Positions 7,659 through 37,045 of a DNA stretch of 45,813 bases are shown piece after piece. This DNA comes from Porphyromonadaceae bacterium. Lineage in GTDB: Bacteria; Bacteroidota; Bacteroidia; Bacteroidales; UBA12481. The notes under the pieces are model-generated. The model saw only the letters and a program-made list of their open reading frames with translations. It was not told the origin of the DNA and did not search any database. The position numbers were made by a program, and so were the translations under genes. How positions within the stretch are numbered: position 1 is the first letter of the stretch; each line of letters begins with the position of its first letter. The stretch lies in assembly GCA_007280905.1 (NCBI GenBank), contig QYQM01000146.1, positions 1-45,813 of the forward strand, given 5' to 3'.

Positions 7659-8903
7659 TCAATTGATACTTTTAACCTTGTATCCTTTTAGTCCAAAAAA
7701 GACAATAAAACCAAAACAAAACAAGGGGACAATGAATCCTAGTGCCATATTTGAGACATCAGCTATCCAACCCATGAACATAGGACAGATGGCACCTCCC
7801 ACTATTGTCATAATAAGGAAAGAGGAGCCTTTTTTTGTCAGTCCTCCCAGATCTTTTATCCCGAGGGCAAATATGGTGGGGAACATAATTGACATACAGA
7901 AATAGGTCAGATACAAGGCTATAAGTGATAACCAACCCAGGCCCAGAATAACGAAGACCATGGCAAGAACATTGATAACCGCATATAAAGCAAGCATTTG
8001 ATTAGGCTTAAACCAGCTCATTAGCACACTGCCAGAGAACCGGCCAACCATAAAGAATACAAAACCAAGTGATAAAAGGAACGCAGCTTTTTCATTGCCG
8101 AACTGGGGCATTGTCTCGGTAACATAATTTATAAAAAAACTGTTGATCCCGGTTTGCGCAGCAACGTAAAGGAACTGTGTTGCAACTGCAAATTTAAAAT
8201 GAGGAACTTTCAGCAGATCCCTGTATCTGCCTTTATCACCATGTTCATCATGTTCCCCTTCATGTATTTCAGGCAACCTGGTAAACATGAACAGTATTGC
8301 TACCAGGAGCACCATGGTTCCGATAATCATATACGGTAAAGTCATCGAAGCAAATTTGTTGGTTTCAGAACCATTTGTTCCGCCGAAAATCAACATCCCT
8401 CCGATAAATGGGCCCATTATCCATCCCAATCCATTAAAGGATTGTGAAAGGTTAAGGCGCTGTTCCGAAGTTGCTTTAGGTCCAAGAACCGTTGAAAACG
8501 GATTTGCTGCAGTCTCAAGGCAGGTCAGGCCGCATGCTATCACAAAGAGGCAAAGCAAGGTGAATCCGAATGTCTGTACCTGGGCTGCCGGAATGAAAAG
8601 AAATGCTCCTATTGCATAAAGAATTAAACCAAATATTATCCCTTTCTTATAGCCGAACCGGCTCATAATCAACCCTGCAGGTATTGCCATCACAAAATAA
8701 CCTCCATAAAGAGATGCCTGCACCCAGCCTGATTTGGCTCTCGTAATTCCTAATATTTCCTGAAAATGTTTATTCAGAACATCAAGAAGACTATGCGCGA
8801 AACCCCACAGGAAAAACAGGCTTGTAACAAGGATAAATGGAACTAAAAACCCGGCGGTAACAAGTTTCTTGCGGTTCCCGCTAACAGTTAAATCGTTTGT
8901 CAT
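7659..8903 (-). CDS. fucP: L-fucose/D-arabinose:H+ symporter
   Basis: This major facilitator superfamily permease of the FucP family has 12 predicted membrane helices and about 414 residues from the chosen start. It closely follows E. coli FucP: SLFFLWGFAHSLLDVLNKHF keeps the membrane aspartate, GLTCLETAANPF keeps the essential glutamate, and FPTIFALGIKDLG with KGSSFLIMTIVGGA matches the C-terminal half. It imports L-fucose with protons. The family also takes D-arabinose and L-galactose. An upstream in-frame start at 8957 exists, but a consensus promoter lies inside that extension, so the ATG at 8903 is preferred. It is divergent from fucI across a shared 208-base regulatory region. Confidence 0.93.
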   Translation of the reverse strand: MTNDLTVSGNRKKLVTAGFLVPFILVTSLFFLWGFAHSLLDVLNKHFQEILGITRAKSGWVQASLYGGYFVMAIPAGLIMSRFGYKKGIIFGLILYAIGAFLFIPAAQVQTFGFTLLCLFVIACGLTCLETAANPFSTVLGPKATSEQRLNLSQSFNGLGWIMGPFIGGMLIFGGTNGSETNKFASMTLPYMIIGTMVLLVAILFMFTRLPEIHEGEHDEHGDKGRYRDLLKVPHFKFAVATQFLYVAAQTGINSFFINYVTETMPQFGNEKAAFLLSLGFVFFMVGRFSGSVLMSWFKPNQMLALYAVINVLAMVFVILGLGWLSLIALYLTYFCMSIMFPTIFALGIKDLGGLTKKGSSFLIMTIVGGAICPMFMGWIADVSNMALGFIVPLFCFGFIVFFGLKGYKVKSIN

Positions 8904-8935
8904 ATAGATTATTGTTATTAACTCATCCGTTTCTC

Positions 8936-8965
8936 CAAAAATAGATAGATATAACAATAAAACAA
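8936..8965 (-). promoter_or_regulatory. Promoter of fucP
   Basis: Read on the - strand: TTG (8965-8963), a 19-base spacer, then TATTTTTG (8943-8936). This is a full match to the Bacteroidota -33/-7 consensus. Transcription would start near 8930, downstream of the alternative start at 8957, which decides the fucP start. Confidence 0.7.
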
Positions 8966-9064: not shown

Positions 9065-9111
9065 TTCTCTTCTTCATAGCATAAAAAGTATTAATTAAAA
9101 TATTGAATCAA

Positions 9112-10914
9112 ATGGCTAATAATGAGTTAAAGGTAAATCATACCTTTCAGACAGTTATAGGTGATTTTCCAAAAGTGGGAATCCGTCCGACAATCGATGG
9201 CAGGATGCGTGGTGTAAGGGAATCGCTTGAGGACCAGACCATGAACATGGCAATGAATGCTGCAAAACTTATCTCATCAAATCTGAAGTATCCCAATGGC
9301 AAGCCGGTTGAGTGTGTTATAGCTGACACCTGTATCGGTGGTGTTGCTGAATCGGCAATGTGTGCCGAAAAATTCAGTAAAAACGGTGTCGGAGTGAGCC
9401 TTACTGTTACTCCATGCTGGTGTTATGGAAGCGAAACAATCGACATGAACACTGATATTCCAAAAGCTATCTGGGGGTTTAATGGTACTGAGCGGCCTGG
9501 TGCTGTTTACCTTGCTGCAGCACTTGCTGGCCATACCATGAAGGGTTTGCCTGCATTCGGAATTTACGGACATGATGTTCAGGATTCAGGAGATCAGACG
9601 ATACCTGAAGATGTCAGTGAAAAAATTCTCAGGTTTGTACGCGCCGGTCTCGCTGCATCGCTAATGAAAGGCAAATCGTATCTTTCAATGGGATCGGTTT
9701 CTATGGGGATTGCAGGATCGATAGTTCGGGAAGATTTCTTCCAGGAATATCTTGGAATGCGGAATGAGTACGTTGACATGAGTGAATTTAACCGCCGGCT
9801 GAACGAGGAGATTTTTGATAAGGATGAATTCAAAAAAGCACTTGAATGGACAAAGAAAAGCTGCAAGGAGGGGAAAGACCTTAATGCTGCTCCAAAATCA
9901 AGAATGCAGAAGGATAAGGAATGGGAAATTGTTGTAAAGATGACACTCATTGCCCGCGATCTTATGGTTGGCAATCCAAAGCTTAAAAAGCTTGGCTTTG
10001 GCGAGGAGGCACTGGGACATAATGCTATTCTTTCGGGTTTCCAGGGGCAGCGCCATTGGACCGATCATATGCCAAACGGCGATTTTCTTGAAGCTATTCT
10101 TTGTTCATCATTCGACTGGAACGGTATAAGACCCCCATATCTTGTTGCCACTGAGAATGATGCAATGAACGGAGTGCCCATGCTATTTGGTTATCTTCTT
10201 ACCAATACAGCGCAGATGTTTTCAGATATCCGTACCTACTGGAGCCCTGAAGCAATAAAAAGGGTTACAAAGATGACACCTGAAGGTCTGGCATCGAATG
10301 GAGTTATTCACCTGATCAATTCAGGAGCTTCATCTCTTGATTTTTCTGGAAGGCAGACGAAGAATGGTGAGTCGTGCATTAAACCATTCTGGGATATTAC
10401 TGGAAAGGATGCAACCGCATGTCTTGAAGCAACACAATGGCCACCTGCAGCTTCAGAATATTTCAGGGGAGGTGGTTTCTCATCCCAATTCGATACAAAA
10501 GGTACAATGCCTGTCACCATTTCGAGAGTCAACCTTGTAAAAGGACAGGGTCCTGTTCTTCAGCTTGCAGAAGGCTGGACAGTTGAACTTCCGGAAAAGA
10601 TGAACAAGATACTTACTGACAGGACAAATCCCACCTGGCCAACAACATGGTTCGCTCCAAGGCTCACCGGAAAAGGACCATTCTCCGATGTCTATTCCGT
10701 AATGGCTAATTGGGGTGCTAATCACTCTGCCTCAAGCTATGGGCACATCGGTGCTGATCTTATAACACTTGCATCAATCTTAAGAATACCTGTTTGTATG
10801 CATAATGTTGTTGAGGAGAAAGTGTTCCGGCCAAGTGCATGGAATGCTTTTGGGATGGAAAAAGAGGGAGCTGATTACAGGGCATGTCAGACTTACGGGG
10901 CGCTTTATAAATAA
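9112..10914 (+). CDS. fucI: L-fucose isomerase (D-arabinose isomerase)
   Basis: This 600-residue, Mn-dependent ketol isomerase converts L-fucose to L-fuculose and, in the same family, D-arabinose to D-ribulose. It aligns with E. coli FucI over its full length: [57 protein letters not shown] and [15 protein letters not shown]. The metal and catalytic residues lie in [10 protein letters not shown] (Glu), [12 protein letters not shown] (Asp) and WGANH (His). The ATG at 9112 is chosen over the in-frame TTG at 9103. A hairpin with a short T-tract follows the stop and fucK lies beyond it. FucI and FucK are cytosolic and act one after the other. Confidence 0.96.
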
Positions 10915-10937: not shown

Positions 10938-10970
10938 AAAGGGGCTGTTTCAAAATGATTCAGCCCTTTT
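10938..10970 (+). terminator. Hairpin terminator/attenuator between fucI and fucK
   Basis: AAAGGGGCTG (10938-10947) pairs with CAGCCCTTTT (10961-10970), with one G-U pair, and ends in TTTT. It sits 24 bases after the fucI stop and just before the fucK ATG at 10997. It would lower fucK expression relative to fucI or end the fucI transcript. It also overlaps the alternative upstream fucK start at 10955, which makes that start unlikely. Confidence 0.65.
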
Positions 10971-10996
10971 ATTCTGTTTTAATTAATTCCTTTCTT

Positions 10997-12415
10997 ATGC
11001 CAAAAGGTGATATTGTACTCGTTTTCGACTGCGGAGCAACAAATGTCAGAGTTATAGCAATTAATAGCAAAGGAGAAATACTTGCATCTGAATCATCCCC
11101 CAATAATATACGACCAGATCCTTTCTATCCTGCGTACAGGATTTGGGATGTAAATGAGATATGGGAGAAGATGTGCCGGGCATCACAAAAAGTTATCAGT
11201 CAGATCCGTAAAGACAGAATTGCCGGCGTCACAGTCACAACTTTTGGGGTTGATGGAACCCTGTTCGACAGATCAGGGAAAATGCTTTACCCGGTCATAT
11301 CATGGCAATGCGAAAGAACCAATCCTATAATGAACAATATCGATAAATATTTACCTCTTAATGATTTATATAGCGAGTGCGGTGTTCTTCCTTTCAGCTT
11401 CAATACAATTAATAAACTGATCTGGTTTGTCGAACAAAAGCCTGAAATGGTTGAAAGAAGCTACCGGTTTCTTTTTATGCCTTCAATATTCTCATCCCTT
11501 CTTACCGGAGAGATGGTAAATGATGCATCAATGGCTGGAACATCGATGTTAACAAGCCTGTCGACAAGGGGTTTTTCTGAAAATATTATCAATAAGATCA
11601 ACTTCCCGTTTGAAAAAATCGGAACACCCGTTGAAGCAGGAACTGTTACCGGAAAGATCAATGCAAAGGCATCTGCAGAAACAGCAATTCCTGAGGGGAT
11701 TCCTGTTGTTGCAACCGGTCACGACACACAATTTGCAATTTTCGGATCAGGAGCTGAAAAAAACCAGCCCGTACTCAGTTCAGGAACCTGGGAAATACTG
11801 ATGGTACGATCAGAAAGTTTCCGGGCAGGAAGAGATCAGCTCCATATGGGGATCACTACCGAATTTGACTCCAGGCCAGGGTTGTATAATATTGGAAACC
11901 AGTGGATTGCCTCGGGTGTGCTTGAGTGGGCCCGCAGAAATCTATATGGCGATATTAAAGATGATGTTTATGATGTTATGATTTCAGGAGCAGAAAAAGT
12001 ACCATCCGGTTGCAATGGAGTGAAGGTTATTCCAAAATTCTATGAAGAGCTAAAGGGCAAACCAGGTGGCCAGATACTCGGTCTGACACTGGAATCGACC
12101 CGCGATGAGATATATCGTGCAATGCTTGAAGCACTTTCTGAAAGACTCGCAGAGGGGAAGAGGGCGCTCGAAAATGCCGGCGGATTTAAAACCGAAAGTA
12201 TCCTTTGTGTGGGAGGTGGATCAAGAAACAGACTGTGGAACCGTTTAAGAGCCGATTTTACAGGGGTTCCTCTGAAAATCATCGATCAGAAAGAGTCCAC
12301 TGTCCTTGGTGCTTCATCATTCGTACAGGCAGCATGTGGCAATGCAGCCTCGCCCGAGGAGGCCAGATCAGCAATTGTTTATAAAACCGAAATAATTGAA
12401 CCCGGAGTGAAGTGA
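10997..12415 (+). CDS. fucK: L-fuculokinase (FGGY family)
   Basis: This 472-residue sugar kinase phosphorylates L-fuculose (or D-ribulose made from D-arabinose) at O-1. It matches E. coli FucK: VLVFDCGATNVRVIAIN (ATPase phosphate-1 motif), VTTFGVDGTLFD, GHDTQFAIFGSG, LSSGTWEILMVRS and LCVGGGSRNRLWN, with MPKGD at the preferred start. The aldolase (FucA) and lactaldehyde reductase (FucO) that would complete the route are not in the window. The gene is convergent with the PUL, with only 32 bases between the stops. Confidence 0.93.
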   Translation: MPKGDIVLVFDCGATNVRVIAINSKGEILASESSPNNIRPDPFYPAYRIWDVNEIWEKMCRASQKVISQIRKDRIAGVTVTTFGVDGTLFDRSGKMLYPVISWQCERTNPIMNNIDKYLPLNDLYSECGVLPFSFNTINKLIWFVEQKPEMVERSYRFLFMPSIFSSLLTGEMVNDASMAGTSMLTSLSTRGFSENIINKINFPFEKIGTPVEAGTVTGKINAKASAETAIPEGIPVVATGHDTQFAIFGSGAEKNQPVLSSGTWEILMVRSESFRAGRDQLHMGITTEFDSRPGLYNIGNQWIASGVLEWARRNLYGDIKDDVYDVMISGAEKVPSGCNGVKVIPKFYEELKGKPGGQILGLTLESTRDEIYRAMLEALSERLAEGKRALENAGGFKTESILCVGGGSRNRLWNRLRADFTGVPLKIIDQKESTVLGASSFVQAACGNAASPEEARSAIVYKTEIIEPGVK

Positions 12416-12447: not shown

Positions 12448-15220
12448 TTATTCCGGAGTTTTACTCAAGACTTTGCCTTTTGCGATCACCGGTTGATACC
12501 AAAATGAACGCCAATATTTCTCATCCATCTGATAATAATCGATGGTCTCTTTGTTGAGATCAAACTTTTCGGGCAACAGGCCATATTCCTTCATAAGCTG
12601 GAAATAGGTAAGAATAGGCCGATAACCAGGCATATCGAATCGTTTCATCCTGTTAAGTTCCCCGGATGAACTCATTATTGAGGAAAATATTGATTGATAA
12701 GCCTTATCATCTGTCGTACTGAAAACAGGCTTACCCTCTTTATTTTTACAAAAACCATAGCCACCCTTTTCTTTGGACAGCGGTGCCAGCAATGCAATAG
12801 CGGTTAAGGATAGGCTGAATATCACGGGGATAATCAAAAACCTCTGGAATATCAGGTATAGGAACAATCGGGCTGGCCGGTTTTCTGAGTGCCATAGGCA
12901 GGCCATTGCTCGGTTTTCTCGGAGTATTTGTACGTTTTTCATGACAACCGGAACAACTGGTGAACTCGCCTGGCTGCAACGTTACAAAACTCTGCATTCG
13001 CTTGACTGACAGATCATTTTCATCCAATGCCACGAAAAACAAACTCCGCAAGGCGGGCAATTCCATATAAGCCGATCCGTCCGGTTCAACCGGGACAGTC
13101 CCTAAAATACGTTTCAATGTAAATGTACCACCCATGCTGGTTGGCTCCGGTCCACCATTAGTATTGAAAGGTTTTGGTAATTGTTCCAGCACCAACAGCT
13201 TTTTTACTTCTCCGGGCTTGACTCCTTTCATATTACGACCAAACGTAACGTCCATAAGAGCAAGCCGGCCTGTAGCACGACCCGGATCGATCCTTGCGGG
13301 AATTATGTTTTCGCGTTTTCGTGGAATAATCGGACGAGGTTCCTGAATCATCAGATTTGGATGCGAATCCTCAGGCAAAGAATATAACGGATAGGTATGA
13401 CCGCATCCGTCCGTCATCAATATTTTTCGGTCATTCACAAAAAGAAATAAATCATTCGCCACGGGATAGGGGTCCATGCTCTGCCCCGGCTGAGCGACAA
13501 CTTGTCCAAGATCAATAGGCTTCACTGCAGCCCGTTCATCCGGCCCGTATTTTGGGTCCAATACCATCAATGTGCCGCGGCGGTCTTCCATTCCGTGAAG
13601 GGGTATATCCACATAAACGATTTTATCGCTATTCGGAATCGGTTTGGCATCAATGAATACATTATTGGGAAATTGATTGCCATCAAGGACCATCACTCCC
13701 GTTTCATCAGGATTAATTGTCCACAGGTGCTGATAGCGCATCTGGTTGCGGTCCACATACTCCCAGCGCATATACATCACGCGGCCATCCCCGTTACAGC
13801 GGTATAAAATCGATGTCCGGTAGGTTCCGCAGGCTACCCAGGGATTGCACCGGGTGGAGCTGAAAACAATATTGCCGTCAGGCAGACAGATCCCTTCAAT
13901 GTCATCATAAGGACCAATAGTGATTTGTTTCAGGCCCGTGCCATCCGAATTGATTTCATACAGATGATAATATTCGGCACCTCTTTTACGCCAGGAAAAT
14001 AAAATCCTGTTACCATTATAATAAACATGCGGATCTCGAAACGCACCTTCAGGATCATCGAGCAAAGTCGTAACACTGCCCGTACGTAAATTCAAACGGC
14101 ATAATTGACTGCCTCCTTCACAGTACATCTTGACCGAGGCGACTTCATAAAAAAAGAGAGATCGCCATACCAATTATGCCCCCTGGTTCTGTGTCGCTGC
14201 ACAAAAACAAGTTCTTCAACTCCCACCCGGGCACGTATTGCATACCATCGCAAAGCTTCCAGTTTTCCAGCCAATACTTTGAGTTCTGATAATTCCAGGC
14301 GATCTTCTTTCCCTTCTGCGAACGCGCCAAGAATCTGATCTCGCTGTCGTTGCAGGTCTGCCAGTTGAGAGGGAAAATCTGGTTGAGCCTCCGCAAATAG
14401 ATTGGGAAATTTACTTCTCAGGGTCGAAATCGTGGAACTGTTGGCCAATAGCAGGTCGAATTCAGTATTCTGTATAATTTTCAAGTATTTAAAGGCTTGG
14501 CGGGATTGATAATAGAGTCGCCTGATTTGCAACAGGTTATCATCTGTTTGGGCAGTTTTGGCAAACTCCATAAGTGTATTGGCATAACCCTTTCCTGAAC
14601 AAGCCAGTGCATAGCGCCGAGCTAGTGTTCTAATATTTTCTGAGTGCAAAAGTCCAAGATGTTCACTCCAGATGCCGTCTGCAAATTCCCATTTCATCTC
14701 CTGGCGTGCTACCGAATCGGAGAAATCGTGCTGCAACTGCTGCCAAAACAACAAACCTAATGTCAGAGGCGCCGGCACGAAATATTCCTTTTATCGTACA
14801 GGCAACCGGAACAAAGATGGTGCGATAAAGATAAACAGAGAGCAAAGAATTGTTCTGCCAATAATACGGCTCAGCGTCATGAAAATTTTGAAGTTCCTGC
14901 CAAATAGATTTTCCGTCAGCATCTTTAGCAGTCAGGTCCGGATTATTGAAAAATAATATATTAGCTGATCTGCCCTCGTTGAAAAAACTAATATCGAATT
15001 TGGGATCGCTCCAATTTTCTTCTACCAAAACATCATCAATCGGTCTGGTACTATACCAAGGCCCAACTTGCACGAGTGCTTTGCCTTTCGAGATCGAATC
15101 CTGATTATTCAGCACCAAAACTTCTTGTGAAGACAGCATAGACTGCTGCCAGGTATCCATATCCGGATGACTTCCCTTATGACTGCAACTTTGGGAAAGC
15201 CACATGGAAAATAAAACCAT
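12448..15220 (-). pseudogene. HzsA-like c-type cytochrome/PD40 lipoprotein, frameshifted
   Basis: Four consecutive frames (15220-14663, 14778-14092, 14173-12746, 12942-12448) join into one ~920-residue protein. It has a lipoprotein signal (LSQSC), beta-propeller PD40-like blades (YEINSDGTGLKQIT, LWTINPDETG), a heme c motif CSGCH, a second heme site broken near RYCIA, and the tail YWRSFWYQP. This resembles hydrazine-synthase-alpha-related proteins (HZS_alpha fold) common in Planctomycetes and seen in some Bacteroidota PULs. Their role there is unknown. Shifts lie near 14790 (removing one T from T4 restores the frame), at 14149-14155 (A7, one base short) and near 12777-12790. Either the gene is decayed or the read quality is poor. 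Confidence 0.6.
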
Positions 15221-15306: not shown

Positions 15307-15906
15307 TTATGTTATTGTTGAAATTGCATCCACTTCAATTTCAAAAAGCAATTCATCGCGGCAAATATCGGCTTTGACAATGAGCAGCGGGAAATCCGGA
15401 ATTCCCAGATCAGCACAGTATGCATCAAAAAACTCACAGTCAGCAGCATGTTTAAAATAAGCAATCGCTCTATTAATGTTTTTCCAGTTCATCTGCCGGC
15501 TATGCAAAATCGCCAGCACCACTTTCATAGTCTGGTCGATTTGTGACCTAACGTCACCCAGGTGCATGCTTTGTCCATCTATATCAATACTTGCTGTCCC
15601 CGATATCAAAAGCTGACGATAACCGGATGCAGATATTTCTATGGCACGACTAAAAAAACTGCCATATTTGATTGCCGGACACTGCAATGGTGAAGGGATT
15701 ATCTGTATTTTTAATAATGGATTCCTTACTAAAAGCGCAAAAACACCCGCAACCAATGCGCATCCCGAATGATTTCTCCCGCTGATCCCTGTGCTGGCCG
15801 GCACCAAACCATCGAACACTCTGTTGGAGGTACAGGAAACATTTATTAATGCAACAAAGCAGCAACTTAATAATAAGCAGGAGCCATATTTTTTTAAATT
15901 AGACAT
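15307..15906 (-). CDS. RidA/FkbO-Hyg5-like lipoprotein, probably truncated
   Basis: From the ATG at 15906 it has about 199 residues, with a lipoprotein-type leader (LINVSC). The C-terminal ~130 residues form a RidA-like fold: LLISGTASIDIDG, HLGDVRSQIDQTMKVVLAIL, NRAIAYFKH and CRDELLFEIEVDAI. These words are closest to the chorismatase-like FkbO/Hyg5 branch rather than to plain RidA deaminases. That family is normally well over 300 residues, so the N-terminal domain is missing. The segment between leader and domain (residues 25-75) looks degraded. It directly follows the GH2 gene; the alternative ATG at 15927 would overlap GH2. Confidence 0.5.
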   Translation of the reverse strand: MSNLKKYGSCLLLSCCFVALINVSCTSNRVFDGLVPASTGISGRNHSGCALVAGVFALLVRNPLLKIQIIPSPLQCPAIKYGSFFSRAIEISASGYRQLLISGTASIDIDGQSMHLGDVRSQIDQTMKVVLAILHSRQMNWKNINRAIAYFKHAADCEFFDAYCADLGIPDFPLLIVKADICRDELLFEIEVDAISTIT

Positions 15907-15910
15907 AGCT

Positions 15911-17815
15911 TCATTTTTTACCTTCATTTGCGGCCTTTATCCTTGCTGTATCCACTTTAATAAGCTGACGGTCATAGGTAACAAGTCCGTTGCATTCCAC
16001 TTCAACATCTGAGAACTGTGTATATATTCCCCCGCTGATCCCGTTGGCCTGAATCATCCTGTGTAAGGATTTCAGCATGGTTTCGTAACGGGTGGTGAAT
16101 TCATCAGCTGTTTTTAGCAACGGATAGCCTGCATCAGTAAATGGTTTCAACCCGATCAGTGACTTATTCCACGAGTGATCGGGAAAAAATAAGAAGGTTC
16201 CGCCAAATTCGCCTGCCACGGCCGCGCGTGTTTTCTCAGGCGAAGCTTTGACTTCCCACTGCCATTCATCCGGATCTGCCGATGGCCAGGATTTTGTCGG
16301 TCCGGGATCAGGACCCGGATACTGATGACCGTCGATGATGTCGCCGACACCAAAATTCTCGCAGCCGCTGGCGCTGTTCACCAATCTTGTTGAATCCAGT
16401 TCCTTAACCCATTTTGTCAATCGTCTGGTATCATACTGTCCCCAGGTCTCATTAAAAATAGTCCACATCACGATACTGGGATGGTTCCTTAATCCTTCCA
16501 CCATCCGCTGCATTTCAAGTTCAAATTGGCTGGCATCTGCCGGAGAGGTAAATAATTCGTTAGGGCCATACCCTGCAGCAGGAAATTTGGGTATCATATC
16601 CTGCCATACAAGCAGTCCCATTTTATCGCACCAGTAATACCACCGGTCAGGTTCAACCTTGCCGTGTTTTCTGGCAACATTGAACCCGAATTTTTTCATG
16701 AGTCCGATATCAAAACGGAGTGCGGAATCGGTTGGGGCCGTGTAGAGCGCATCCGGCCAATAGCCTTGATCGAGCAGACCTATCTGAAAAACAAACTTAT
16801 TATTCAAAAGTATGCGGGTGACTTTTTGGTCATCGATTCCGATGGAGATCTTTCTCATTCCGAAATACCCGTCAACTTCATCAATTTTCTTTTCTCCCTG
16901 ATAAAGAGAGATTTTAAGACTGTACAGAAAAGGACGTTCGGGCCACCAAAGCTTGGGATTTGGAATATCAAGAGTTAAATTGGCCTCGGGCTTACCAATA
17001 TTTCGGGCGATTTCTTTACCTTCATCCATGGCCACAGCAACTAATGAAAATGAATCATCTGTGCCTGTTCCTGAGACCTTCAGATTCAGGACCCTTCGGT
17101 CAATATCCGTTGCCACTTCAAATTTCTCAATTCTGGCGGAGGGCACAGGTTCCAACCACACGGTTTTCCAGATTCCGCTGACCTGCGAATACTCTGTCCC
17201 AAAGGGAATTGACCGCTGCTTACCGCTCGGCTGGCGGGGTGCCCGGATGGTATCGATCCGTCCCAGATCTGTGGGGTCCCAGACTTTTACAAGTAACTCC
17301 TGCTCTTTGTCAGATCTTAATTCATTGGTAATGTCAATACTGAATGGGTCATACCCGCCCTTGTGTTCGGCAAGTTTTTTCCCATTAAGATAAATTGACG
17401 CCTGCCAGTCAACAGAACCGAAATGCAGCACTATATGCTGGTTTTTCCAAGCAGGCGGGAACTTGAAAGTCCGATGATACCAAAGCCTCTGGTCGGGCTG
17501 AAGGTTTTTCATCACACCGGAAAGGGCTGATTCCATTGGAAAAGGAACCAGGATTTGACCCCGATAAGCCTGAGGAACCTTGGCAGCCTCATCCGTTATT
17601 GCATACTCCCATAATCCATTCAGATTCATCCACTGATCACGCACCATCTGCGGGCGCGGATATTCAGGAAGTACATTATCAGGAGAAACATCATGCGTCC
17701 AACGGGTTATTAATGGTCCTTCAGCAGGGCTCCATTTCGGTAAATCATTCTTGTTCTGACAAGAGGTAAATATCAGTCCAACAAGAATATATGATATTGC
17801 TGATAATAATTTCAT
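15911..17815 (-). CDS. Glycoside hydrolase family 2 lipoprotein
   Basis: This 634-residue enzyme has a lipobox (FTSC), a sugar-binding jelly roll (about 60-215: LNGLWEYAI, WYHRTFKFP, VDWQASIYLNG), an immunoglobulin-like domain (about 215-330) and a TIM barrel. The acid/base glutamate is in TIFNETWGQ (NE motif), and the likely nucleophile is in VAGEFGG. The family cleaves terminal beta-galactosides, beta-mannosides, beta-glucuronides or similar. The specificity is not readable here. Attached to a membrane, it would trim oligosaccharides in the periplasm or at the surface. It lies 42 bases after the 892-residue protein gene and is probably co-transcribed with it. Confidence 0.88.
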   Translation of the reverse strand: MKLLSAISYILVGLIFTSCQNKNDLPKWSPAEGPLITRWTHDVSPDNVLPEYPRPQMVRDQWMNLNGLWEYAITDEAAKVPQAYRGQILVPFPMESALSGVMKNLQPDQRLWYHRTFKFPPAWKNQHIVLHFGSVDWQASIYLNGKKLAEHKGGYDPFSIDITNELRSDKEQELLVKVWDPTDLGRIDTIRAPRQPSGKQRSIPFGTEYSQVSGIWKTVWLEPVPSARIEKFEVATDIDRRVLNLKVSGTGTDDSFSLVAVAMDEGKEIARNIGKPEANLTLDIPNPKLWWPERPFLYSLKISLYQGEKKIDEVDGYFGMRKISIGIDDQKVTRILLNNKFVFQIGLLDQGYWPDALYTAPTDSALRFDIGLMKKFGFNVARKHGKVEPDRWYYWCDKMGLLVWQDMIPKFPAAGYGPNELFTSPADASQFELEMQRMVEGLRNHPSIVMWTIFNETWGQYDTRRLTKWVKELDSTRLVNSASGCENFGVGDIIDGHQYPGPDPGPTKSWPSADPDEWQWEVKASPEKTRAAVAGEFGGTFLFFPDHSWNKSLIGLKPFTDAGYPLLKTADEFTTRYETMLKSLHRMIQANGISGGIYTQFSDVEVECNGLVTYDRQLIKVDTARIKAANEGKK

Positions 17816-28299: not shown

Positions 28300-28327
28300 G
28301 ATTAAATAGTCATAAGTTAAATTCAAT

Positions 28328-29230
28328 TCATTGAAAATCAGCCATTGCCGGTTTTAAAGTTTTATCATCATACCAATACCAGACCACACCGAAAATCTCA
28401 GGTGGGCGCTGCGGCGCACCCGGAAATTCCTTCCATGATCCTTTTGTCAGCTTATTGTCTTTTGTGAAATGAACATGATGAATCAGTTTAACTTTTCCAT
28501 CGGTATACCACGATTCCCAAGGCCATTCATCCGAGTGGTCCATTGGCGGTAAAATGTATATCACCGGCCCGTCGCCGCCCAGGATATGAGGAATTACTAC
28601 CCACCGGCATTGCTGATAATAGGTTTTTGCCTTTGCAGAGAGTGGAGCAATCAAAACTTCTTCGGCATCGAAATCCAGTACCTTTGCCGCATCATAGATC
28701 CGTTCACGACGAAGTTGTTCCTGCAAAGTGGCTGGTTTATTCAAATTTCGAGGGTACAAGTCGTCTTCCTCAATTTTATACCAACGCGCGACTCCTTTTT
28801 CGGTTGGATCTTTTAAAGGATACAGCACCCAGGATTCTTTCCGGGTTATTCCCTGGTCATCTTTATACCATCTTTCCCAAGGGGTCCAGCCTGATTCCTC
28901 TTCCGGAGGCAAGGCGCTGATCATAATTCCTCCGCCTTCATGATAGCCAACCGACCAGCGATACCGGCGGTAATTATGATCAACCCTTTGGGCCAGCGGT
29001 TTCAGGTATTTATCGATATCCAAACCGATTTGACCGGCGGCCGCCAGCACACCGGCCGAACTCAGGCTGGCCAGAAAATCAGTATCAATCCATTCATTTA
29101 CGCCTGCTGCGGTTATTTTTTGGGATAAAGCTGCCGGCTCTGAGTTTCCCTTCCCCGGGCCTGTTGAGCAGGAGGAACCGCCCAACCACCAAATCAGTAA
29201 CACTATGGCATACTTATTCATGCAATTCAT
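28328..29230 (-). CDS. Lipoprotein of unknown function with two internal repeats
   Basis: This 300-residue protein has a lipobox GGSSC. I do not recognise a family. Two copies of a ~50-residue module are visible. The first, near residues 89-140, has RYRWSV, ISALPPEEESGW, PWERWYKDD and ESWVLYP. The second, near residues 215-275, has CRWVVI, IYILPPMDHSDEW, PWESWYTDG and GSWKEFP. The shared core is LPP-x(5-7)-W-x-PWExWY. Tryptophan- and proline-rich surfaces of this sort suit carbohydrate binding. An ATG at 29221 is an equally good start. It sits between the DUF6786-like gene (28 bases) and the broken GH116 gene (13 bases), in the enzyme operon. Confidence 0.6.
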   Translation of the reverse strand: MNCMNKYAIVLLIWWLGGSSCSTGPGKGNSEPAALSQKITAAGVNEWIDTDFLASLSSAGVLAAAGQIGLDIDKYLKPLAQRVDHNYRRYRWSVGYHEGGGIMISALPPEEESGWTPWERWYKDDQGITRKESWVLYPLKDPTEKGVARWYKIEEDDLYPRNLNKPATLQEQLRRERIYDAAKVLDFDAEEVLIAPLSAKAKTYYQQCRWVVIPHILGGDGPVIYILPPMDHSDEWPWESWYTDGKVKLIHHVHFTKDNKLTKGSWKEFPGAPQRPPEIFGVVWYWYDDKTLKPAMADFQ

Positions 29231-29243: not shown

Positions 29244-30876
29244 TTAATTTTGAGTTGCATTAACCGGCATACCTGCCGTTTTATCATTCGCAGTCACCAC
29301 AAATTCTTCTGGTTTGCCATCCACAAATACCCTGGTCGTTTTGAATTTAGTAATACCCGTTCCGTTTAACGTAAAGCTGTTAAGATTTAATGGCCCATTC
29401 AGGGAAGTCAGTTTGACCGACTTATCCTGGCCATTATCGGCGATCTCAACCGTACCATAATGATAACCGTTCGACCAAAAATATTTTCCCGGTCTCGAAT
29501 TGAAATTCATACTCTTCTTTACGGCTGAGTAATTAAATCCGGTAAAAGCCAAAACGCCTCCCCAGGCTGCCATGGCGCGGGCATAGCGGTGGCCGTATTC
29601 TCCTTCATTGAACGGGTTGCGCTTGTTGCCATCAAAGCGGTCGCGAATGGCCTTGTAAACCTGTAATCCGGCATCCAATTGGCCCTCGTAGATCATGCCA
29701 ATCGCAGCACTGTATTCAAAACCAGTCATGATCTCGGTGTAATAAGGAAAAGGAAAATCCAACAATTCTCCTTTGGGATAGCTCGCCATGATCAATCCTG
29801 ATTCACCACCCAAACCAAAGCTTCTGAAGGTGTTAAAATGCTCGTTAAAATTGGTTATATAATTATACTTCATAATGCTTTGGAGGGTAGTCTGAACATG
29901 CGACTGGTCCAGGATATATCTGAGACCTGCCGTATGTGCCAGTTATACCTTCTTTTTGTATTGGGATAACAACATCATGATCATTCGCTGGCTTTCCAAA
30001 AGAAGCTTCATCATTCGGATGATCTGTCAGTTCACCATCTGCAATAAAATCATCCCAAAATTCCCTAAACGTCCAGTTCCATCCCAATTTTGCCCATGAC
30101 GTCCGGTAGGTAACGTTTTCATCAGATAAAGTTGTTAAGGCCATGGTGCCCCAGTTGATATCGTCCGTGTCTTTCCGAGTGGTATACATGTAGATACCTC
30201 TTATCGAGCCGGTTTTTCTAAACTCATTTTTATTTTCAATGGGCTTTCCACTCCACCCATCAACACCAATAAAGTTGGGGATCATGCCGCATAATGAAGT
30301 CTCGATGGGTTTATCGGAAATATTGGTAATGACATAGCGGAGCACCGCTACCGGAATCCCGCTTTTGTTTTCATCGCCCGCGATCAGCGGATTAAAGGCT
30401 TCCAATCTGATATTCAGCGGAACTTGTTTATGGCTGAAGGTGACCTGGGCCAAAGGATAGGCTGCCGCAAAGGCAGTTTCCTCAAAACGCGGGAACCCTC
30501 CGTTCAGGGCATCGGCACCCCAGTCGCCATAATACTCTTTAATCGGTACCGGTCCTTCCAGCACTCGTATGCTGGCTTCACCTCCTTGCGCCTTATAATA
30601 TATGGCGAAGAAAGGTCCGTTGGCGATCGTGGGTTGCACCAGTTTGAAGGCAGGCAGCCATCCGATTGCCCCACGGTTCATCAGTTCCCAATCGCGCAAA
30701 TCTCCCCGTCCTCCAATGGAAACGCCCCCTGTTCCGATACCTCCCAGGGGCATTGCCACTTCTGTAAGGTAAATTCCATTATATGATTTTAATACAGGCC
30801 AGTCTTTATTCAACTCTTGTGCCGTGATCTGATTACAGCATAGAATCAAACCTAATAGAAATATGTTTCTTATCAT
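29244..30876 (-). pseudogene. GH116-like enzyme, internal deletion (second copy)
   Basis: Two frames (30876-29863 and 29873-29244) are the two ends of a GH116/DUF608 protein like the intact copy at 32076-34616. The N-terminal part has a signal peptide, [33 protein letters not shown] and [11 protein letters not shown]-type sequence. The C-terminal part starts [11 protein letters not shown] and has [15 protein letters not shown] and [10 protein letters not shown]. About 300 residues are missing at the junction near 29870, including the counterparts of EGC, CTHVWNY and HNTMD that hold the catalytic glutamate and aspartate. The join is also out of frame. It cannot be an active hydrolase. Confidence 0.75.
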
Positions 30877-30962: not shown

Positions 30963-32049
30963 TTACCTGGGCCATCTGTCTTTAATCTCAGGAAATTTCG
31001 GGAATTTGTTATGTGGTTCCACTTGATACCAATAGGCAACAGAAGCAATATCATCTGCCAGAGCTCTGTATCCTTCAGGCTTTCCATTATACCAGCCTAA
31101 TGCCTGAATGGTCATTCGCAAATCTTTTTTAAAAAAGATTGGATCCATAATATGCCATCTATACAAGCTCCATTTTCTGGGTCCACCATCAGTAGCATCC
31201 TTGTTATTTAATGTATTGCCAACATAGGCTGTAGTATATATTTCCGGAAACCCATAACTGCCACAAAAATAATCTTCAGTTCCTGTGCCACAGATTGTTG
31301 GAAATTTATCATCCCCATCGATATAGAATTTAACTTCACCTTCACCAAACCATCCGGAATGCAGTTGGGTCCATGCCAGGAAAGTTCCAACGTATTTGCC
31401 TTGCCCTTTAACATTGTCCAGAATAGTATAATCAGGATTTGACGGATCAACTGTCGATTTTCTCCATTGGGCATGGAAATAGCCAATATTTTCAGGTATT
31501 TCACTTATAGCATAAGTTATTTGATAGGTAAGTAATCCTAATTCTCTTTCTCCCTCATTTGTAAATGTGATTTTTACATGCTTTCGAAATGGCATAGGCC
31601 AATAACAATTAAGTGCTGACATTGGGTTTACTATAACAGCTAAGGAATTAACCCGTGCAAAAATATCATGACCTACCATTTCCATTCCAACTTGTTTCAG
31701 TTGCCATCCAGATATGTTGAATCGTCCCGGGACCATCAACATCCATTATGGTAACAGTTACTCCCGGTTTAGGCTTAATAAAAGGACTGACTTTCCATCC
31801 CTGACCCAGGTGTTCGGCAGCTTTTGAAAAAGGCAGATTTGGATTGTTAACATCAGGTATTGCCATTCCTCCCTTACCCTTTTCTCCGGTCGGATTTTCC
31901 GGTGAAATCATACGGGTTTCAACATTCATCATTAATGGAAGACTGCCAAGACCAAAATTTAGTATTGGATCATTGAATTTCATTGTTTGCGCAAACAATC
32001 CGGGACATAATAATCCTGTCACTATAAAACCAAGAATAGTTTTTTTCAT
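30963..32049 (-). pseudogene. GH172 (DUF2961) short-type protein, internal deletion (second copy)
   Basis: Two overlapping frames (32049-31666 and 31742-30963) make one GH172-type protein. The first has a signal peptide (GLFAQ), a beta strand region and GPGTIQHIWMATE. The second continues GHDIFARVNS, CYWPMPF, GWFGEGEVKFYIDGD, CGTGTEDYFCGSYGF and YRWHIMDPIFF, where WFGEGE and GTEDYF carry the glutamates that are catalytic in the family. At about 31670 roughly 30 residues, normally including the DFF motif, are missing and the frame changes, so translation stops after residue 127. It lies 26 bases after the intact GH116 gene and appears to be a duplicated, decaying module. Confidence 0.72.
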
Positions 32050-32075: not shown

Positions 32076-34616
32076 TTATAGTTTTATGTTGAATACCTGG
32101 TTATCACCTGCCTGTAAAGTTTTAACGGCATTTAATGAAGATTTGCCCAGCCCTGGAACCGTTATTGATGAAATTTCCAGTTTGCCGTTCAATACATTCA
32201 ATTTCACTTGCTTTGCACCATCTTTTTGAGAAATTTCCACCGTTCCATAAGAATAACCATTGGACCAGAAGTAATTTCCAATAATGTTGCCGAATGTGAT
32301 TTCTTTAGTTACTCCTGAATAATGAAATCCGGTCAGAGCGAGCAAAGCTGACCAGCTGGCCATGGCACGGCCATAGTGATGCCCGCATTCAGCTTCGTCG
32401 AAAGGGCTTCTTTTTCTTCCGTCATAACGGTCCCGGATATTCTTAATACATTTCAATCCATCGTCTGTTTGTCCTTCGTAAAGCATACCTATAGCAGCCA
32501 CATATTCGAAACCTGTCATAACTTCAGTAAAATAAGGGAAGGGATTCACCGGTCTGGTCCTTGGATACGATGCCATCAGAAGTGCCGCTTCATCTGCGAA
32601 AGCATAACTCCTGAAACAATTGAAATGGTCCGACAGATCAGGTTGATAATTATATTTCATAATACTCTGCAGTGTGGTTGCCACATTTTCTTTCTGCACC
32701 AGGTATCCTAATCCACAAACATGAGCAAGGTACTGACCAACAAGCTGATCAACAAGACATCCTTCGCCAAGCTGATAGTCAGGGTTTCCATAATCTGTTG
32801 AACCCATTCCGACCAACTGCTCTGCAGGAATATCTTCTTTTTTAGGAACAATAACCTTATGTATATAATACTCCCCATTAAAAAGATTTTCATCGGTCCA
32901 CTTGCTGCCGCTTTCAAAAAGTTTTCTGCATTTCAGAGCCATTTCCTTGTCCTTCAAATAGGTTGACATTTCTTCCATGGCGCGCAATGCACCCAGATAC
33001 CATATTGTCATCTGTGGATTGGGACCATAATACTCCACATCCATCGTATTATGCTGAACACCTTCCATTACTCCATCCTGGTTTCCATCCCAGCCTCCTT
33101 TAATCCAGGCATAGCTTAATGCACTTTTAGCTTTGGGATAGAGCTCCTTTAAAAAGTGATCATCCCCGGATAGCTGCCATTCCCTGAAAAGCTTTATAAT
33201 GCAACCCATCTGACCATCGGCTGCCACTTTAGCAAAATCAGGTATATTGTCAAGGGGCAGCTTTACCCGAAAGCTCATCAGGCCATTGTCTTTGGTTGCA
33301 CGGCCAAATTCAACCTGACGGAATGTCCGCGCCAGATCCCCGAAAAGAAATGCCGTAGCGGTTTCATAATTCCATACATGGGTGCAGGTTCCAAAACAAC
33401 ATCCGGCTTTATCGCCGCATCCCTCCCATGCGTAAAAGTTCCCGTCAGAAAGGCGAAAACAGGTCTGGGTCCTTAAAGTGCTGACATTAAACAACGCAGC
33501 CTCTTTCACTTCAATTGGTATGTTGCTGTTACAGAATGCACTGACAAACTCAATGGTTTTATTCTCCAACTGCACCAGTTGCGGAACCGCTTTGGATGCA
33601 ACATCCCATGCACCGGCATACCTCGTGGTATAATAATTCTTCAAAGGCTTGGTTGCCCAGGCTGTCCTGTTAGGAAAATACCAGGTAATCAGGAATCTGA
33701 TGGTCTTTTTCGCATGGGCCGGCAGAATATCGCTGACGGCCAGCGAGGCCATCGGCTTATCGGAAATACTATCCTTTCGGTTCTCCAGTTGACCGTCTTT
33801 TGACAGATCATCCCAAAAGTCCAATATAGAGGAGCCCCATCGCTCGGGCAACCATGCGGTTCGATAGGATATATTTCCCTTTGATGTGGTCACAAGAGCC
33901 ATTTCTCCCCATTGGTCGGTTTTATTATCCACACCATCGGATGAAAATAGTATTCCGCTTAAGCCCTGATTCTTATTAAAAGTATTCTTATTACCTTTTG
34001 CCTTCCCCTGACTGCCGTCCTCTCCGATAAAATTTTGCATGGTACCGCAGACGCTGAATGAAATTTCCTTATTCGTGGTGTTTGTCAACTCAAAATCAAT
34101 TACAGCCATCGGGATGCTGCTATTGTCGATATCTCCCGGGATCAGGGGATTAAAAGCTTTGATCTTCACATCAACGGGTACCTGCGGGGTTTTCAGGTTA
34201 ACTTGTCCGAAAGGATAGGCCGCATCAAATGAGACTTCCCTGAAACGCGGAAGACCGTGATTGGTAGCGGTTGCCCCCGAATTTCCTTCATACAGATAAA
34301 ATGGAGCCGGACCTTCCAGTAATCGAAGGTCTTTTTTACCGTCGATCTCGGTAAAGAGAGTAAAAAATGCAGAAGTTTCCCTTCCTGAAGACGGATTGTA
34401 ACCCTTTGCCGGGCGGCTCATGATTTCCCAATCCTGCAGATTTCCCCTGCCACCGAGGGACACGGTGCCTGTGCCGATGCCTCCGAGCGGAAGCGCAATT
34501 TTGTAGGTATGTTCCAGATCGTATTTTTTCAGAACGGGCCATTCCGAACCGCTGGCATTTTCAAATTGAAATGCCGATAAAAACAGAATAATACAAAATA
34601 TTGGTAAAGTTTTCAT
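32076..34616 (-). CDS. GH116 family (DUF608) glycoside hydrolase
   Basis: This 846-residue exported enzyme has a signal peptide cleaved near NASGSE, an N-terminal beta-sandwich (about 25-320: WPVLKKYD, LGGIGTGTVSLGGRG, KAFNPLIPGD) and an alpha/alpha six-hairpin catalytic domain. AWEGC with CTHVWNYETA marks the likely nucleophile region, and QHNTMDVEYYGPN holds the likely acid aspartate. GH116 includes beta-glucosidases, beta-xylosidases and beta-D-arabinofuranosidases. It lies 101 bases after the intact GH172 gene in the same direction and is probably co-transcribed. Specificity is inferred only from this pairing. Confidence 0.85.
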   Translation of the reverse strand: MKTLPIFCIILFLSAFQFENASGSEWPVLKKYDLEHTYKIALPLGGIGTGTVSLGGRGNLQDWEIMSRPAKGYNPSSGRETSAFFTLFTEIDGKKDLRLLEGPAPFYLYEGNSGATATNHGLPRFREVSFDAAYPFGQVNLKTPQVPVDVKIKAFNPLIPGDIDNSSIPMAVIDFELTNTTNKEISFSVCGTMQNFIGEDGSQGKAKGNKNTFNKNQGLSGILFSSDGVDNKTDQWGEMALVTTSKGNISYRTAWLPERWGSSILDFWDDLSKDGQLENRKDSISDKPMASLAVSDILPAHAKKTIRFLITWYFPNRTAWATKPLKNYYTTRYAGAWDVASKAVPQLVQLENKTIEFVSAFCNSNIPIEVKEAALFNVSTLRTQTCFRLSDGNFYAWEGCGDKAGCCFGTCTHVWNYETATAFLFGDLARTFRQVEFGRATKDNGLMSFRVKLPLDNIPDFAKVAADGQMGCIIKLFREWQLSGDDHFLKELYPKAKSALSYAWIKGGWDGNQDGVMEGVQHNTMDVEYYGPNPQMTIWYLGALRAMEEMSTYLKDKEMALKCRKLFESGSKWTDENLFNGEYYIHKVIVPKKEDIPAEQLVGMGSTDYGNPDYQLGEGCLVDQLVGQYLAHVCGLGYLVQKENVATTLQSIMKYNYQPDLSDHFNCFRSYAFADEAALLMASYPRTRPVNPFPYFTEVMTGFEYVAAIGMLYEGQTDDGLKCIKNIRDRYDGRKRSPFDEAECGHHYGRAMASWSALLALTGFHYSGVTKEITFGNIIGNYFWSNGYSYGTVEISQKDGAKQVKLNVLNGKLEISSITVPGLGKSSLNAVKTLQAGDNQVFNIKL

Positions 34617-34717
34617 GATATATTATTTATTTGTTGAACTTAGGTAATACTTAATTAACTAATATGATTTTTTTGAACCGGAACAAATCCGGCAGATCAT
34701 TCCATACAGGTTGAGAA

Positions 34718-37045
34718 TTATTTCACCGGAATATCAAATGTAACACCACCCATAGTTGCTTCCCAAGGTTTATCATCCTTACTAATGCCAGAAATTACTA
34801 TAATATCACCAGGTTTGGCATTTGAGATATCAAAGAAATACCAATCGGGGACACGGTTGGATGTTGCCAGCGGAACCAGGCCGCTATCACCTCCATCTGA
34901 TTTAGCTACTCTGATGCTTTTTCCTAATTTATTAAAATCATCCAGATTATCTGTCATAATTCCCAATCTAAATACATTGGGGACAGGATCTTTAAGTCTT
35001 ATCTTCATTATTTCTGTTTCTTTATTTGCTTTACACTCAACCATAACTGCACCGGTAATTATGTAAATATCAGGTTGTTTAGGATCAACCAACCAGGAAT
35101 TAAGTAATACGGAATGCTTTTTACCAAATATCTTTACAGATTCTATAAAATCCGGCAAGGTTTTTACAGAGTCGTCCAGGAATTTTAAAGCTCTTCCATT
35201 AAATCGCATGCAGTATATCAGATAGTATCCGGCAGTTCCGTAAATATTATCCTGATCAGCATCCAGGGGTTTAAGATCTGCAGGTATACGCCAGGTCAGG
35301 TAATCGAGATGGTTGCCAACATGTTTTATTGAACCATCACCTTCCGGCTTTGTTGGTCCATTACTTGCCGGATCCGGATAAATAGTACCTGGCAAAATTT
35401 CCTCAGCTTGAGGATAATAATCAGGTAGAAGCCGCTTAACGGAGTTCTCTTCTGATTTTCTGTTACTTGTTGCATCCGGCCGGGCATACCAATAGGTGGC
35501 ATTAGAATAGGAAACTGTCGAATCATGCAACCAGGCTTCAACGTTAACATTCAATGCTGAATTAAAAGGGATTCCATCCAGGAGCCGGATGCGGGAAACC
35601 GTGGTGTAACCGCTCCAATCAGCCTTTCCCCTGGCATCGCGCATAGGAACAGAAATAAAGGGAGAGCTGAACTGATGGGCCATCCCCCAGGAATAGCCGT
35701 AATAGTCCTCCAAACCGGTCCCCAACTGAGACGGGAAAGTCTCATTATCCAGGTAAATCTTTTCATCACCCTCGCCCCACCAGCCTTTGGAAAAGGCATG
35801 TACGGTGAGTACATCTCCTGTATATACGCCTTTCCCTCCAATTTTAATATAATTCCAGTCAATGGGAGTTGATGTATTAATTGGAGCATCCTCATGCCAG
35901 CTTGAATGGAAGTACATGGAGTTTGCCTCCCAGGTATACGGAGAGGCTGCAATTTTCATCTCAACAGTTATGGGCCGGGAACCATGGTTTCTTAGCTGTA
36001 TGAAAGCGGATTGCTGGTAAGGCATCACCCAATTTGACTGTAAAACGCCATTCTCAGTTACCATACTTGCCCAATTCCTAACCGTTCGCAAGTAAACACC
36101 ACCCCCGAAAAACTCGGAGACAGGGCACCACACGGTTTCAACATTATCAAAGAAAAACTGCAGGACACTGGAACGCAAGGTCTGCTTATCAGGTTCAGAA
36201 TCATACCTGATCTGAATGGAACGAACTGCGTTGCTTCCGGCGGGCAGGTCAAGTTTCAGTGCTTCACCCGGTTGTATCGTCTGTTTTCGTTCAATAGTAT
36301 AGGTAAAGGTTTCGTGCTCCGTCAACTTTTTAGCAGTGCGCGCAATCGTTTCATGTGCACTATTATAGCCTTTCAAGCTGAATGACTCAACTTTTATCCC
36401 CGGATTGTAAAACCGGTAACCAATTATATAATAAAACGGATTATCGTCCAATGTAATTTTGCAGCTCTTTGAGAATGGAATGGGCAGGTAGAAGTTTGCT
36501 CCCATCTGTTTGGGATGGCCTACCGGCAAGCCATATTGCCAGCTCGAATCTCTTTCATCAGATGAGATGAAGGCAAAAGGTTCTTTAACGAATGACTTCC
36601 CACTCATCAGATTATGGCAATTCTCCTCTATTACAGGCTTTTCCATACCATCAATATAAAACCTGACAGTCCGGGTTTTATAAGTGTTTTCCAAGGGCAT
36701 CTCCCATCGAACTATACAACCGGGACCATTTTCGTCCATGATCACATATTCATCCCTTCCGTTATTGATTTCTTTCCGGATGTAGTATCCATAATCGATA
36801 TTATTAAACCAGGTTTTTGGGTCTTCCGGTCCTGTCTGGGTGCGATCCCAGCTGCTTAACTGTTTAAGGGTGTAATCTGGAAATTTGGTGATCGATTCCC
36901 GGTCAGTCATTTCGGTCAGCAAGGAGGTAAATGTCACCCTGTGAGAATCCTCATTTGATGCCTGCCGTTTCCCATTACAACTTTGCTGGGTAAGGATGGT
37001 GAGACAGGCAACCATCATCAGCAATACTTCAGCCCGGATTCGCAT
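34718..37045 (-). CDS. GH172 (DUF2961) long-type glycoside hydrolase
   Basis: This 775-residue lipoprotein (lipobox QQSC) has two jelly-roll halves typical of DUF2961: GPGCIVRWEMPLEN, RFYIDGMEKP, YLPIPFSKSCKITL, WWGEGDEKIYLDN and LGTGLEDYYGYSWGM. The glutamates in WGEGDE and GLEDYY correspond to the family's catalytic pair. A ~250-residue C-terminal extension with beta strands follows (VFRLGIM, IVISGIS). GH172 includes enzymes acting on alpha-D-arabinofuranosides and on difructose anhydrides. It is first of the enzyme run after the susD terminator, so it likely has its own promoter, although no TAnnTTTG was found in the 346-base gap. Confidence 0.85.
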   Translation of the reverse strand: MRIRAEVLLMMVACLTILTQQSCNGKRQASNEDSHRVTFTSLLTEMTDRESITKFPDYTLKQLSSWDRTQTGPEDPKTWFNNIDYGYYIRKEINNGRDEYVIMDENGPGCIVRWEMPLENTYKTRTVRFYIDGMEKPVIEENCHNLMSGKSFVKEPFAFISSDERDSSWQYGLPVGHPKQMGANFYLPIPFSKSCKITLDDNPFYYIIGYRFYNPGIKVESFSLKGYNSAHETIARTAKKLTEHETFTYTIERKQTIQPGEALKLDLPAGSNAVRSIQIRYDSEPDKQTLRSSVLQFFFDNVETVWCPVSEFFGGGVYLRTVRNWASMVTENGVLQSNWVMPYQQSAFIQLRNHGSRPITVEMKIAASPYTWEANSMYFHSSWHEDAPINTSTPIDWNYIKIGGKGVYTGDVLTVHAFSKGWWGEGDEKIYLDNETFPSQLGTGLEDYYGYSWGMAHQFSSPFISVPMRDARGKADWSGYTTVSRIRLLDGIPFNSALNVNVEAWLHDSTVSYSNATYWYARPDATSNRKSEENSVKRLLPDYYPQAEEILPGTIYPDPASNGPTKPEGDGSIKHVGNHLDYLTWRIPADLKPLDADQDNIYGTAGYYLIYCMRFNGRALKFLDDSVKTLPDFIESVKIFGKKHSVLLNSWLVDPKQPDIYIITGAVMVECKANKETEIMKIRLKDPVPNVFRLGIMTDNLDDFNKLGKSIRVAKSDGGDSGLVPLATSNRVPDWYFFDISNAKPGDIIVISGISKDDKPWEATMGGVTFDIPVK

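Follow-up and report, generated by a model that had tools for sequence, protein, structure and literature searches.

A possible GH183-free relative of D-arabinan utilization loci beside an L-fucose operon in a Porphyromonadaceae bacterium

In the genome of a Porphyromonadaceae bacterium (assembly GCA_007280905.1), the L-fucose genes fucP, fucI and fucK stand beside a polysaccharide utilization locus (PUL) that carries genes of glycoside hydrolase (GH) families GH172 and GH116. This raises the question of whether the two gene groups together serve a glycan containing D-arabinofuranose (D-Araf) or belong to separate pathways. We analyzed a 45,813-nucleotide stretch of contig QYQM01000146.1, hereafter the window, which is contig 154 of a 4.39 Mb genome (99.3% complete, 185 contigs). 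The FucP, FucI and FucK proteins of E. coli take D-arabinose as a side use, and an earlier note on this DNA proposed a D-Araf glycan, not fucose, as the target. NCBIfam and Pfam searches confirmed the gene content that it described, with FucP, FucI and FucK beside a PUL that holds a pair of GH172 genes and a pair of GH116 genes, each pair with one broken copy (Table 1). In our judgment the chances are about equal that the minus-strand PUL, partly decayed and without GH183, is related to D-arabinan PULs and directed at a D-Araf-bearing glycan, lying beside an ordinary L-fucose operon.

GH172 and GH116 also occur together in PUL42 of Dysgonomonas gadei (PMC10115798) and in a cluster of Microbacterium arabinogalactanolyticum (PMC10509167). 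Those reports describe a fucose isomerase in the D. gadei PUL and, for Microbacterium, an isomerase together with a kinase; in D. gadei on D-arabinan, a predicted fucose isomerase that maps to PUL42 was the most abundant carbohydrate-active enzyme. Compared with these descriptions, the window is without GH183, its exo-alpha-D-Araf-type GH172 is broken, and its FucI is of the fucose-operon type. It also has a pair of large proteins of an unnamed family, here called uFam, along with GH94-like, GH2 and TIM-barrel genes. The comparison with D. gadei was made through locus G230:C33, a sequence stand-in from the same order. Since both GH183 and a PUL-type FucI were looked for and not found, we do not claim membership in the D-arabinan PUL kind. 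The literature searched held no account of a GH183-free locus of this kind.

GH172, GH116 and comparable loci

The broken GH172 gene aligns, in two frames, to residues 13-124 and 156-383 of a 390-aa homolog. In a tree of 18 rows, four of them partial chains of tested enzymes, it falls in the clade of the exo-alpha-D-arabinofuranosidase ExoMA1 (100/100), together with G230_GH172a, the G562 and G297 proteins, and C73 of the window's genome. C73 is an intact ExoMA1-type GH172 encoded outside the PUL, 57% identical to that of G230. The intact GH172 of the PUL has E425 and E446 at the positions of the two catalytic Glu of the DUF2961 domain. For the intact GH116, the nearest solved structure is the exo-beta-D-arabinofuranosidase ExoMA2 (8ic6, GH116 subfamily 4), matched at E 1.1e-122 versus 3e-23 for beta-glucosidases, with 35% identity over 744 columns. 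Its E398, H413, R450 and D526 match E431, H446, R483 and D557 of ExoMA2, to which the ExoMA2 report assigns substrate or catalytic roles (PMC10509167). Grouping with beta-glucosidases or fructan enzymes, named in the earlier note as the outcome contrary to its proposal, was not seen. A third GH116 of the genome, C21, is 60% identical to the GH116 of G230.

Of the intact GH116, residues 6-282 and 653-842 are matched by the broken copy, the second match extending to 629 across a stop; about residues 283-628, including the catalytic residues, are therefore lost. A tblastn search of the window with residues 286-650 of the intact protein matched the intact gene only, so the lost part does not lie elsewhere in the window. 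A HZS_alpha-domain gene and a second FecR gene are broken as well, and the locus could be a dying one whose target is no longer used and whose remaining genes are relics. We find this improbable, as SusC, SusD, the extracytoplasmic function (ECF) sigma factor, FecR, GH116, GH172, both uFam proteins, DUF6786, GH2 and GH94 are all encoded by unbroken open reading frames (ORFs), and the intact ExoMA1-type GH172 (C73) and G230-type GH116 (C21) are present elsewhere in the genome.

Among 295 genomes of the order, GH183 (PF13810) was matched in 20 at E 0.001, with 8 above the cut-off and two strong matches, in G230 and G060. Locus G230:C33 encodes GH183 (320 bits), GH116, three GH172, a SusC/SusD pair, FucI, a FucP-family permease, ribulokinase and LacI, and going by these enzyme families it is a D-arabinan PUL. 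It also encodes DUF6786 (49% identical to that of the window) and a 707-aa uFam relative (25%). The nearest SusC/SusD pair that we found is in Catalimonadaceae JC749 (SusC 55%, SusD 57%), side by side with a uFam ortholog (60%). Within 25 kb, JC749 also has DUF6786 (54%), a FucI-like isomerase, a second SusC/SusD pair like that of G230 (48/47%), a second uFam (64% to that of G230) and two GH116 genes, one 69% identical to that of G230; its GH183 match is weak and on another contig. In G562 and G297, uFam, an ExoMA1-clade GH172 (GH172a), DUF6786, FucI and FucP form one cluster. uFam adjoins DUF6786 in G502, G551, G643 and G667, with a FucP-like gene at the G502 and G551 loci and a Fucose_iso_C isomerase and class II aldolase in G643. 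The uFam proteins of G299, G536 and G309 are distant and are without DUF6786, FucP-like, FucI-type or sulfatase neighbors.

G502 and G571 also have GH116, and SusC/SusD 36-37% like those of the window. Their clusters (L178, L194, L195, L180, L181) include three sulfatase relatives, GH116, SusC/SusD and uFam, and the G502 cluster additionally has DUF6786 and a FucP-like permease; they may serve a sulfated relative of the PUL substrate.

Points against a D-Araf substrate and the descent of FucI

A number of findings weigh against a D-Araf target. The genome search for GH183 suggested in the earlier note came back empty (0 matches), where the same search returned G230 at 4.4e-96 and G060 at 4.3e-85. 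No GH172 was seen near the JC749 cluster in the 96 kb examined. DUF6786 is present in an ordinary fucose cluster of G262 as well (FucI, GH95, GH29, DUF6786, FucP). The intact GH172 of the PUL groups with C68 and C152 of the same genome in a third clade (100/99) that has no tested member, and to judge from the tree, the clearly D-Araf-type GH172 of the PUL is the broken one. The intact GH116 likewise sits in a 13-row clade (100/100) with no tested member, apart from ExoMA2 and from the G230 GH116 clade; ExoMA2 itself has a long branch, which makes its placement unsure. This tree comprised 25 of 30 fetched loci, the window protein and a partial ExoMA2; L008, which is the window, and four partial loci (L020, L029, L032 and L034) were dropped. 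The four key GH116 residues were rejected as a substrate test: all are kept in 26 of the 27 rows, so they cannot separate substrates.

We considered the intact GH172 of the PUL as the "1.5-domain" kind found in G230 and G060 and rejected this, as it groups with neither. A pattern search found neither catalytic Glu motif in those GH172 proteins (G230:C33, 675 aa, L073:9015-11042; G060, 649 aa, L075/L076).

Gene neighborhoods of GH116 were compared at nine loci of close relatives, with Pfam run on 20 chosen neighbors. Next to relatives of 52-62% identity lie a sulfatase and ThuA (G228, G096), GH95 and GH106 (G262), and GH106 and GH29 (G058), all further points against D-Araf, as are the sulfatase relatives near long-type uFam in G502, G551, G643, G667 and G571; in G164 the neighbor is a 3-keto-disaccharide hydrolase. 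In the genome as a whole the GH29 domain gave 16 matches, of which 11 reach E 1e-33 or better. Together with the fucose-type FucI, and with long-type uFam accompanied by sulfatases and GH116 in G502 and G571, these neighbors would fit a PUL for a complex plant- or alga-like glycan, either sulfated or with fucose, rhamnose or L-galactose among its sugars; GH116 of this clade would there remove some beta-linked sugar other than D-Araf, and the fuc operon would take the fucose. We consider such a substrate rather unlikely. As the earlier note had stated for GH29 and GH95, Pfam matched neither family, nor any sulfatase or GH106, among the 30 window ORFs scanned, and the neighbors scanned in G272, G136 and G023 were likewise without these families. 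The broken GH172 also belongs to the exo-alpha-D-Araf clade, the GH116 keeps the four beta-D-Araf residues, and the nearest SusC/SusD pair (JC749) lies in a D-arabinan-type cluster. With 16 GH29 matches in the genome, the lack of GH29 and GH95 in the window has little bearing on whether the cell uses fucose.

The fuc genes lie outside the PUL operon, since fucI and fucK run on the plus strand, the PUL runs on the minus strand, and a decayed gene intervenes. As in E. coli-type fucPIK, all three proteins score above the NCBIfam cut-offs; in the window, however, fucP is divergent from fucIK and there is no aldolase beside them. No Aldolase_II match was found among the window ORFs scanned, so the fuc cluster is without a fuculose-phosphate aldolase; class II aldolase gave four matches in three genes elsewhere in the genome. 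A DDE transposase gene (5557-7302, minus strand) also stands beside the fuc genes.

We surveyed the surroundings of 20 of the 68 above-cut-off FucI matches in the order (18, G230:C33 and the window) and of two FucI-like genes. FucK and FucP relatives, or GH29/GH95, surround seven FucI (G230:C8, G166:C5, G096, G262, G257, G164, G238). Those of G166:C1 and G002:C15 have ribulokinase-like and LacI genes with SusC/SusD, or with DUF6786 and GH172, and the same PUL-linked kind occurs in G230:C33, G562 and G297; the surroundings of nine of the 18 were of no clear kind. Labels were set from the neighbors before the 44-row tree was built, and for G562 and G297 before the 19-row tree; G166:C1 was labeled PUL-linked from its ribulokinase-like, LacI and SusC/SusD genes, without GH172. 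Of the 44 rows, 17 were carried into the 19-row tree, where G562 and G297 joined them; the others were 22 rows whose surroundings had not been fetched, three rows of unclear kind (G212, G272, G023) and two Protein Data Bank rows. In it the five PUL-linked FucI form one clade (support 99/96). The window FucI groups with those of the fucose clusters in G257 and G164 and with G006, whose context is unclear (96/95), and placing it with the five PUL-linked FucI was rejected (approximately unbiased (AU) test, p 0.007). The quick 44-row tree agrees (approximate likelihood-ratio support, SH-aLRT, 92 and 93). This grouping too counts against a D-Araf target. Both FucI kinds are present in each of G230 and G166. 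A ribulokinase-like gene adjoins four of the five PUL-linked FucI (G562 shows none; NCBIfam was run on that of G230 only), where the window has FucK.

To judge from these sequences, the FucPIK genes of the window are by descent an ordinary L-fucose operon. The earlier note had taken them as the link to D-arabinose, a role that fits poorly with a FucI of fucose-operon type by tree, present as a sole copy in a GH29-rich genome and paired with FucK. A single pathway, in which FucP, FucI, FucK and the PUL together process D-arabinan and FucI is dedicated to D-arabinose, would accord with the adjacency of the genes, with this being the only FucI of the genome, with FucP and FucI lying within the GH172 clusters of G562 and G297, and with the closest solved relative of the window FucI, the D-arabinose isomerase 3a9r (977 bits, versus 890 for the L-fucose isomerase 4c21). 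We hold it to be highly doubtful, given the AU result, FucK in place of ribulokinase, the opposite strands with a decayed gene between, the many GH29 matches, and the occurrence of FucI-FucK-FucP in G257 and G164, where nothing within about 9 kb matches GH172 or GH116.

For the D-Araf target proposed in the earlier note, the ExoMA2-like GH116, the ExoMA1-clade GH172 and the presence of DUF6786 and uFam in D-arabinan-type loci speak in its favor; the missing GH183 and the intact GH172 and GH116, which group with no tested enzyme, do not.

The uFam proteins as candidate enzymes

The two uFam proteins of the window (36-40% identical) have no Pfam or NCBIfam match by sequence. A model built from 14 sequences (pLDDT 77, pTM 0.84) predicts a beta-sandwich followed by an (alpha/alpha)6 barrel; an earlier two-sequence model (pLDDT 31) was set aside. 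Because TM to the query is below 0.3 in the 50 Foldseek matches listed, only the barrel comparison was used. The best fold match of the barrel is to GH76 alpha-1,6-mannanases (Z 26.7, 335 residues, 3.5 Å, 11% identity), and lyases, epimerases and phosphorylases are also among its matches. With a 14-row profile, the GH76 chains matched begin at 3.7e-5, and most of these matches cover segments of about 30 residues. Unlike GH76, uFam has an additional N-terminal beta-sandwich domain. Across the 14 sequences, the barrel residues D667, D696, D701 and E761 are invariant, and D610 and E612 are nearly so. A shared fold shows no function, and uFam may be a hydrolase, lyase or epimerase. The 894-aa protein has a YPNP motif by eye, has no Pfam match to type IX secretion, and the motif is missing in the JC749 ortholog.

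When 395 genomes of the phylum were searched with a profile, 11 were positive, including that of the window. The search within the order, which used one protein, missed the divergent G230 member, and two short patterns run once against 84,980 species genomes gave a single relative of the 894-aa protein, that of JC749. DUF6786 is present at nine of 13 uFam loci, the window included; the exceptions are G571, whose cluster reaches a contig end, and three distant members, G299, G536 and G309. In G230, G562, G297 and JC749, uFam, which has two paralogs in the window, and DUF6786 again accompany GH172 or GH116 and a FucI-type isomerase, in G230 with GH183. With its modeled GH76-like barrel, uFam is a candidate new enzyme family. 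It is quite unlikely, but conceivable, that it is a new GH or lyase family that opens D-Araf polymers, filling the endo role where GH183 is missing.

A possible pathway and the remaining genes

Alongside the gene identities, breaks, tree positions and recurring neighbors observed above, we infer a substrate, a direction of flow, activities for DUF6786 and uFam, and a double use of FucI, as follows. The ECF sigma factor and FecR would sense the glycan and SusC/SusD would import it, while the exported uFam pair would cut it. GH116 would remove beta-D-Araf, and GH172 another alpha-furanoside. DUF6786, which had no mention in the literature searched, may act, perhaps as a mutarotase, on the L-fuco/D-arabino-shaped sugar once it is released. 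Either FucI kind could act on both L-fucose and D-arabinose, and the window FucI would also have to serve D-arabinose, being the only one found in the genome. It may double in this way, with D-arabinose converted to D-ribulose and then D-ribulose-1-phosphate for an aldolase encoded elsewhere. That the locus works like a D-arabinan PUL is close to a coin toss.

The PUL is a minus-strand run from 44.1 to 15.3 kb, and the fuc genes occupy 7.7-12.4 kb. In its direction of reading, the PUL begins with the ECF sigma factor, FecR, SusC, SusD, GH172, GH116, broken GH172 and broken GH116, followed by a 300-aa protein, DUF6786, the 894-aa uFam, the GH94-like protein, the TIM barrel, the 892-aa uFam, GH2 and a chorismatase-like piece.

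Table 1 Features of the window. Signal peptides and lipoprotein starts were judged by eye.
Feature	Coordinates	Strand	Evidence or remark
FucP, L-fucose:H+ symporter family	7659..8957	-	TIGR00885 348.9 bits, cut-off 280.4
FucI, L-fucose/D-arabinose isomerase	9103..10914	+	TIGR01089 1037.2, cut-off 850
FucK, L-fuculokinase family	10955..12415	+	TIGR02628 501.5, cut-off 470.9
Decayed HZS_alpha-domain gene	12448..15220	-	four overlapping ORFs (about 2.8 kb), between fuc genes and PUL
Chorismatase/RidA-like C-terminal piece	15307..15927	-	TIGR04444 36.7, PF01042 21.2 bits, both below cut-off
GH2 family	15911..17815	-	PF02836, PF02837, PF00703; lipoprotein-like N terminus
uFam, 892 aa	17858..20536	-	lipoprotein-like N terminus
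Xylose-isomerase-like TIM barrel	20576..21781	-	PF01261; 3qxb 3.1e-9, 4k3z 6.4e-9; no signal peptide
GH94-like	21786..24299	-	PF17167, PF06165; cellobiose phosphorylase 3qde 5.8e-77; signal-peptide-like N terminus
uFam paralog, 894 aa	24362..27046	-	
DUF6786 protein	27058..28326	-	PF20583 535 bits; lipoprotein-like N terminus
300-aa lipoprotein-like protein	28328..29230	-	no Pfam family
GH116 copy 2, broken	29244..30876	-	PF12215/PF04685
GH172 copy 2, broken	30963..32049	-	PF11175; two overlapping frames
GH116 copy 1, intact	32076..34616	-	PF12215/PF04685
GH172 copy 1, intact, 775 aa	34718..37045	-	PF11175 202.5 bits
SusD	37393..38790	-	PF14322, PF07980
SusC	38802..42206	-	PF07715, PF00593
FecR anti-sigma factor	42343..43386	-	PF04773, PF16344
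ECF sigma factor	43524..44108	-	PF04542, PF08281

Upstream of the ECF sigma gene lies the second, truncated FecR-like gene (44713-45099, minus strand; 51% to the intact FecR), perhaps the remains of a duplicated regulator pair. The GH94-like protein has the sequence LGEATSWMW near its C terminus, at the position where phosphorylases carry a Thr-Gly phosphate-binding motif; because this motif is replaced, the protein may be a hydrolase. The TIM-barrel protein weakly resembles 4k3z, a D-erythrulose 4-phosphate enzyme, and 3qxb, a putative xylose isomerase; it might epimerize the sugar that is released.

For other loci, fucI beside GH172 and GH116 is by itself no evidence for D-arabinose, and the split between the PUL-linked group and the other FucI rows compared here offers a quick test. 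D-Araf glycans also occur outside mycobacteria: according to one report, one of two polysaccharides from a deep-sea marine Devosia consists of alpha-D-Araf only (PMC8707391). Few organisms are known to have D-arabinan-degrading enzymes, which are of importance for work on the mycobacterial cell wall. If the PUL acts on D-Araf glycans, it would represent a route without GH183 and point to an unnamed protein family.

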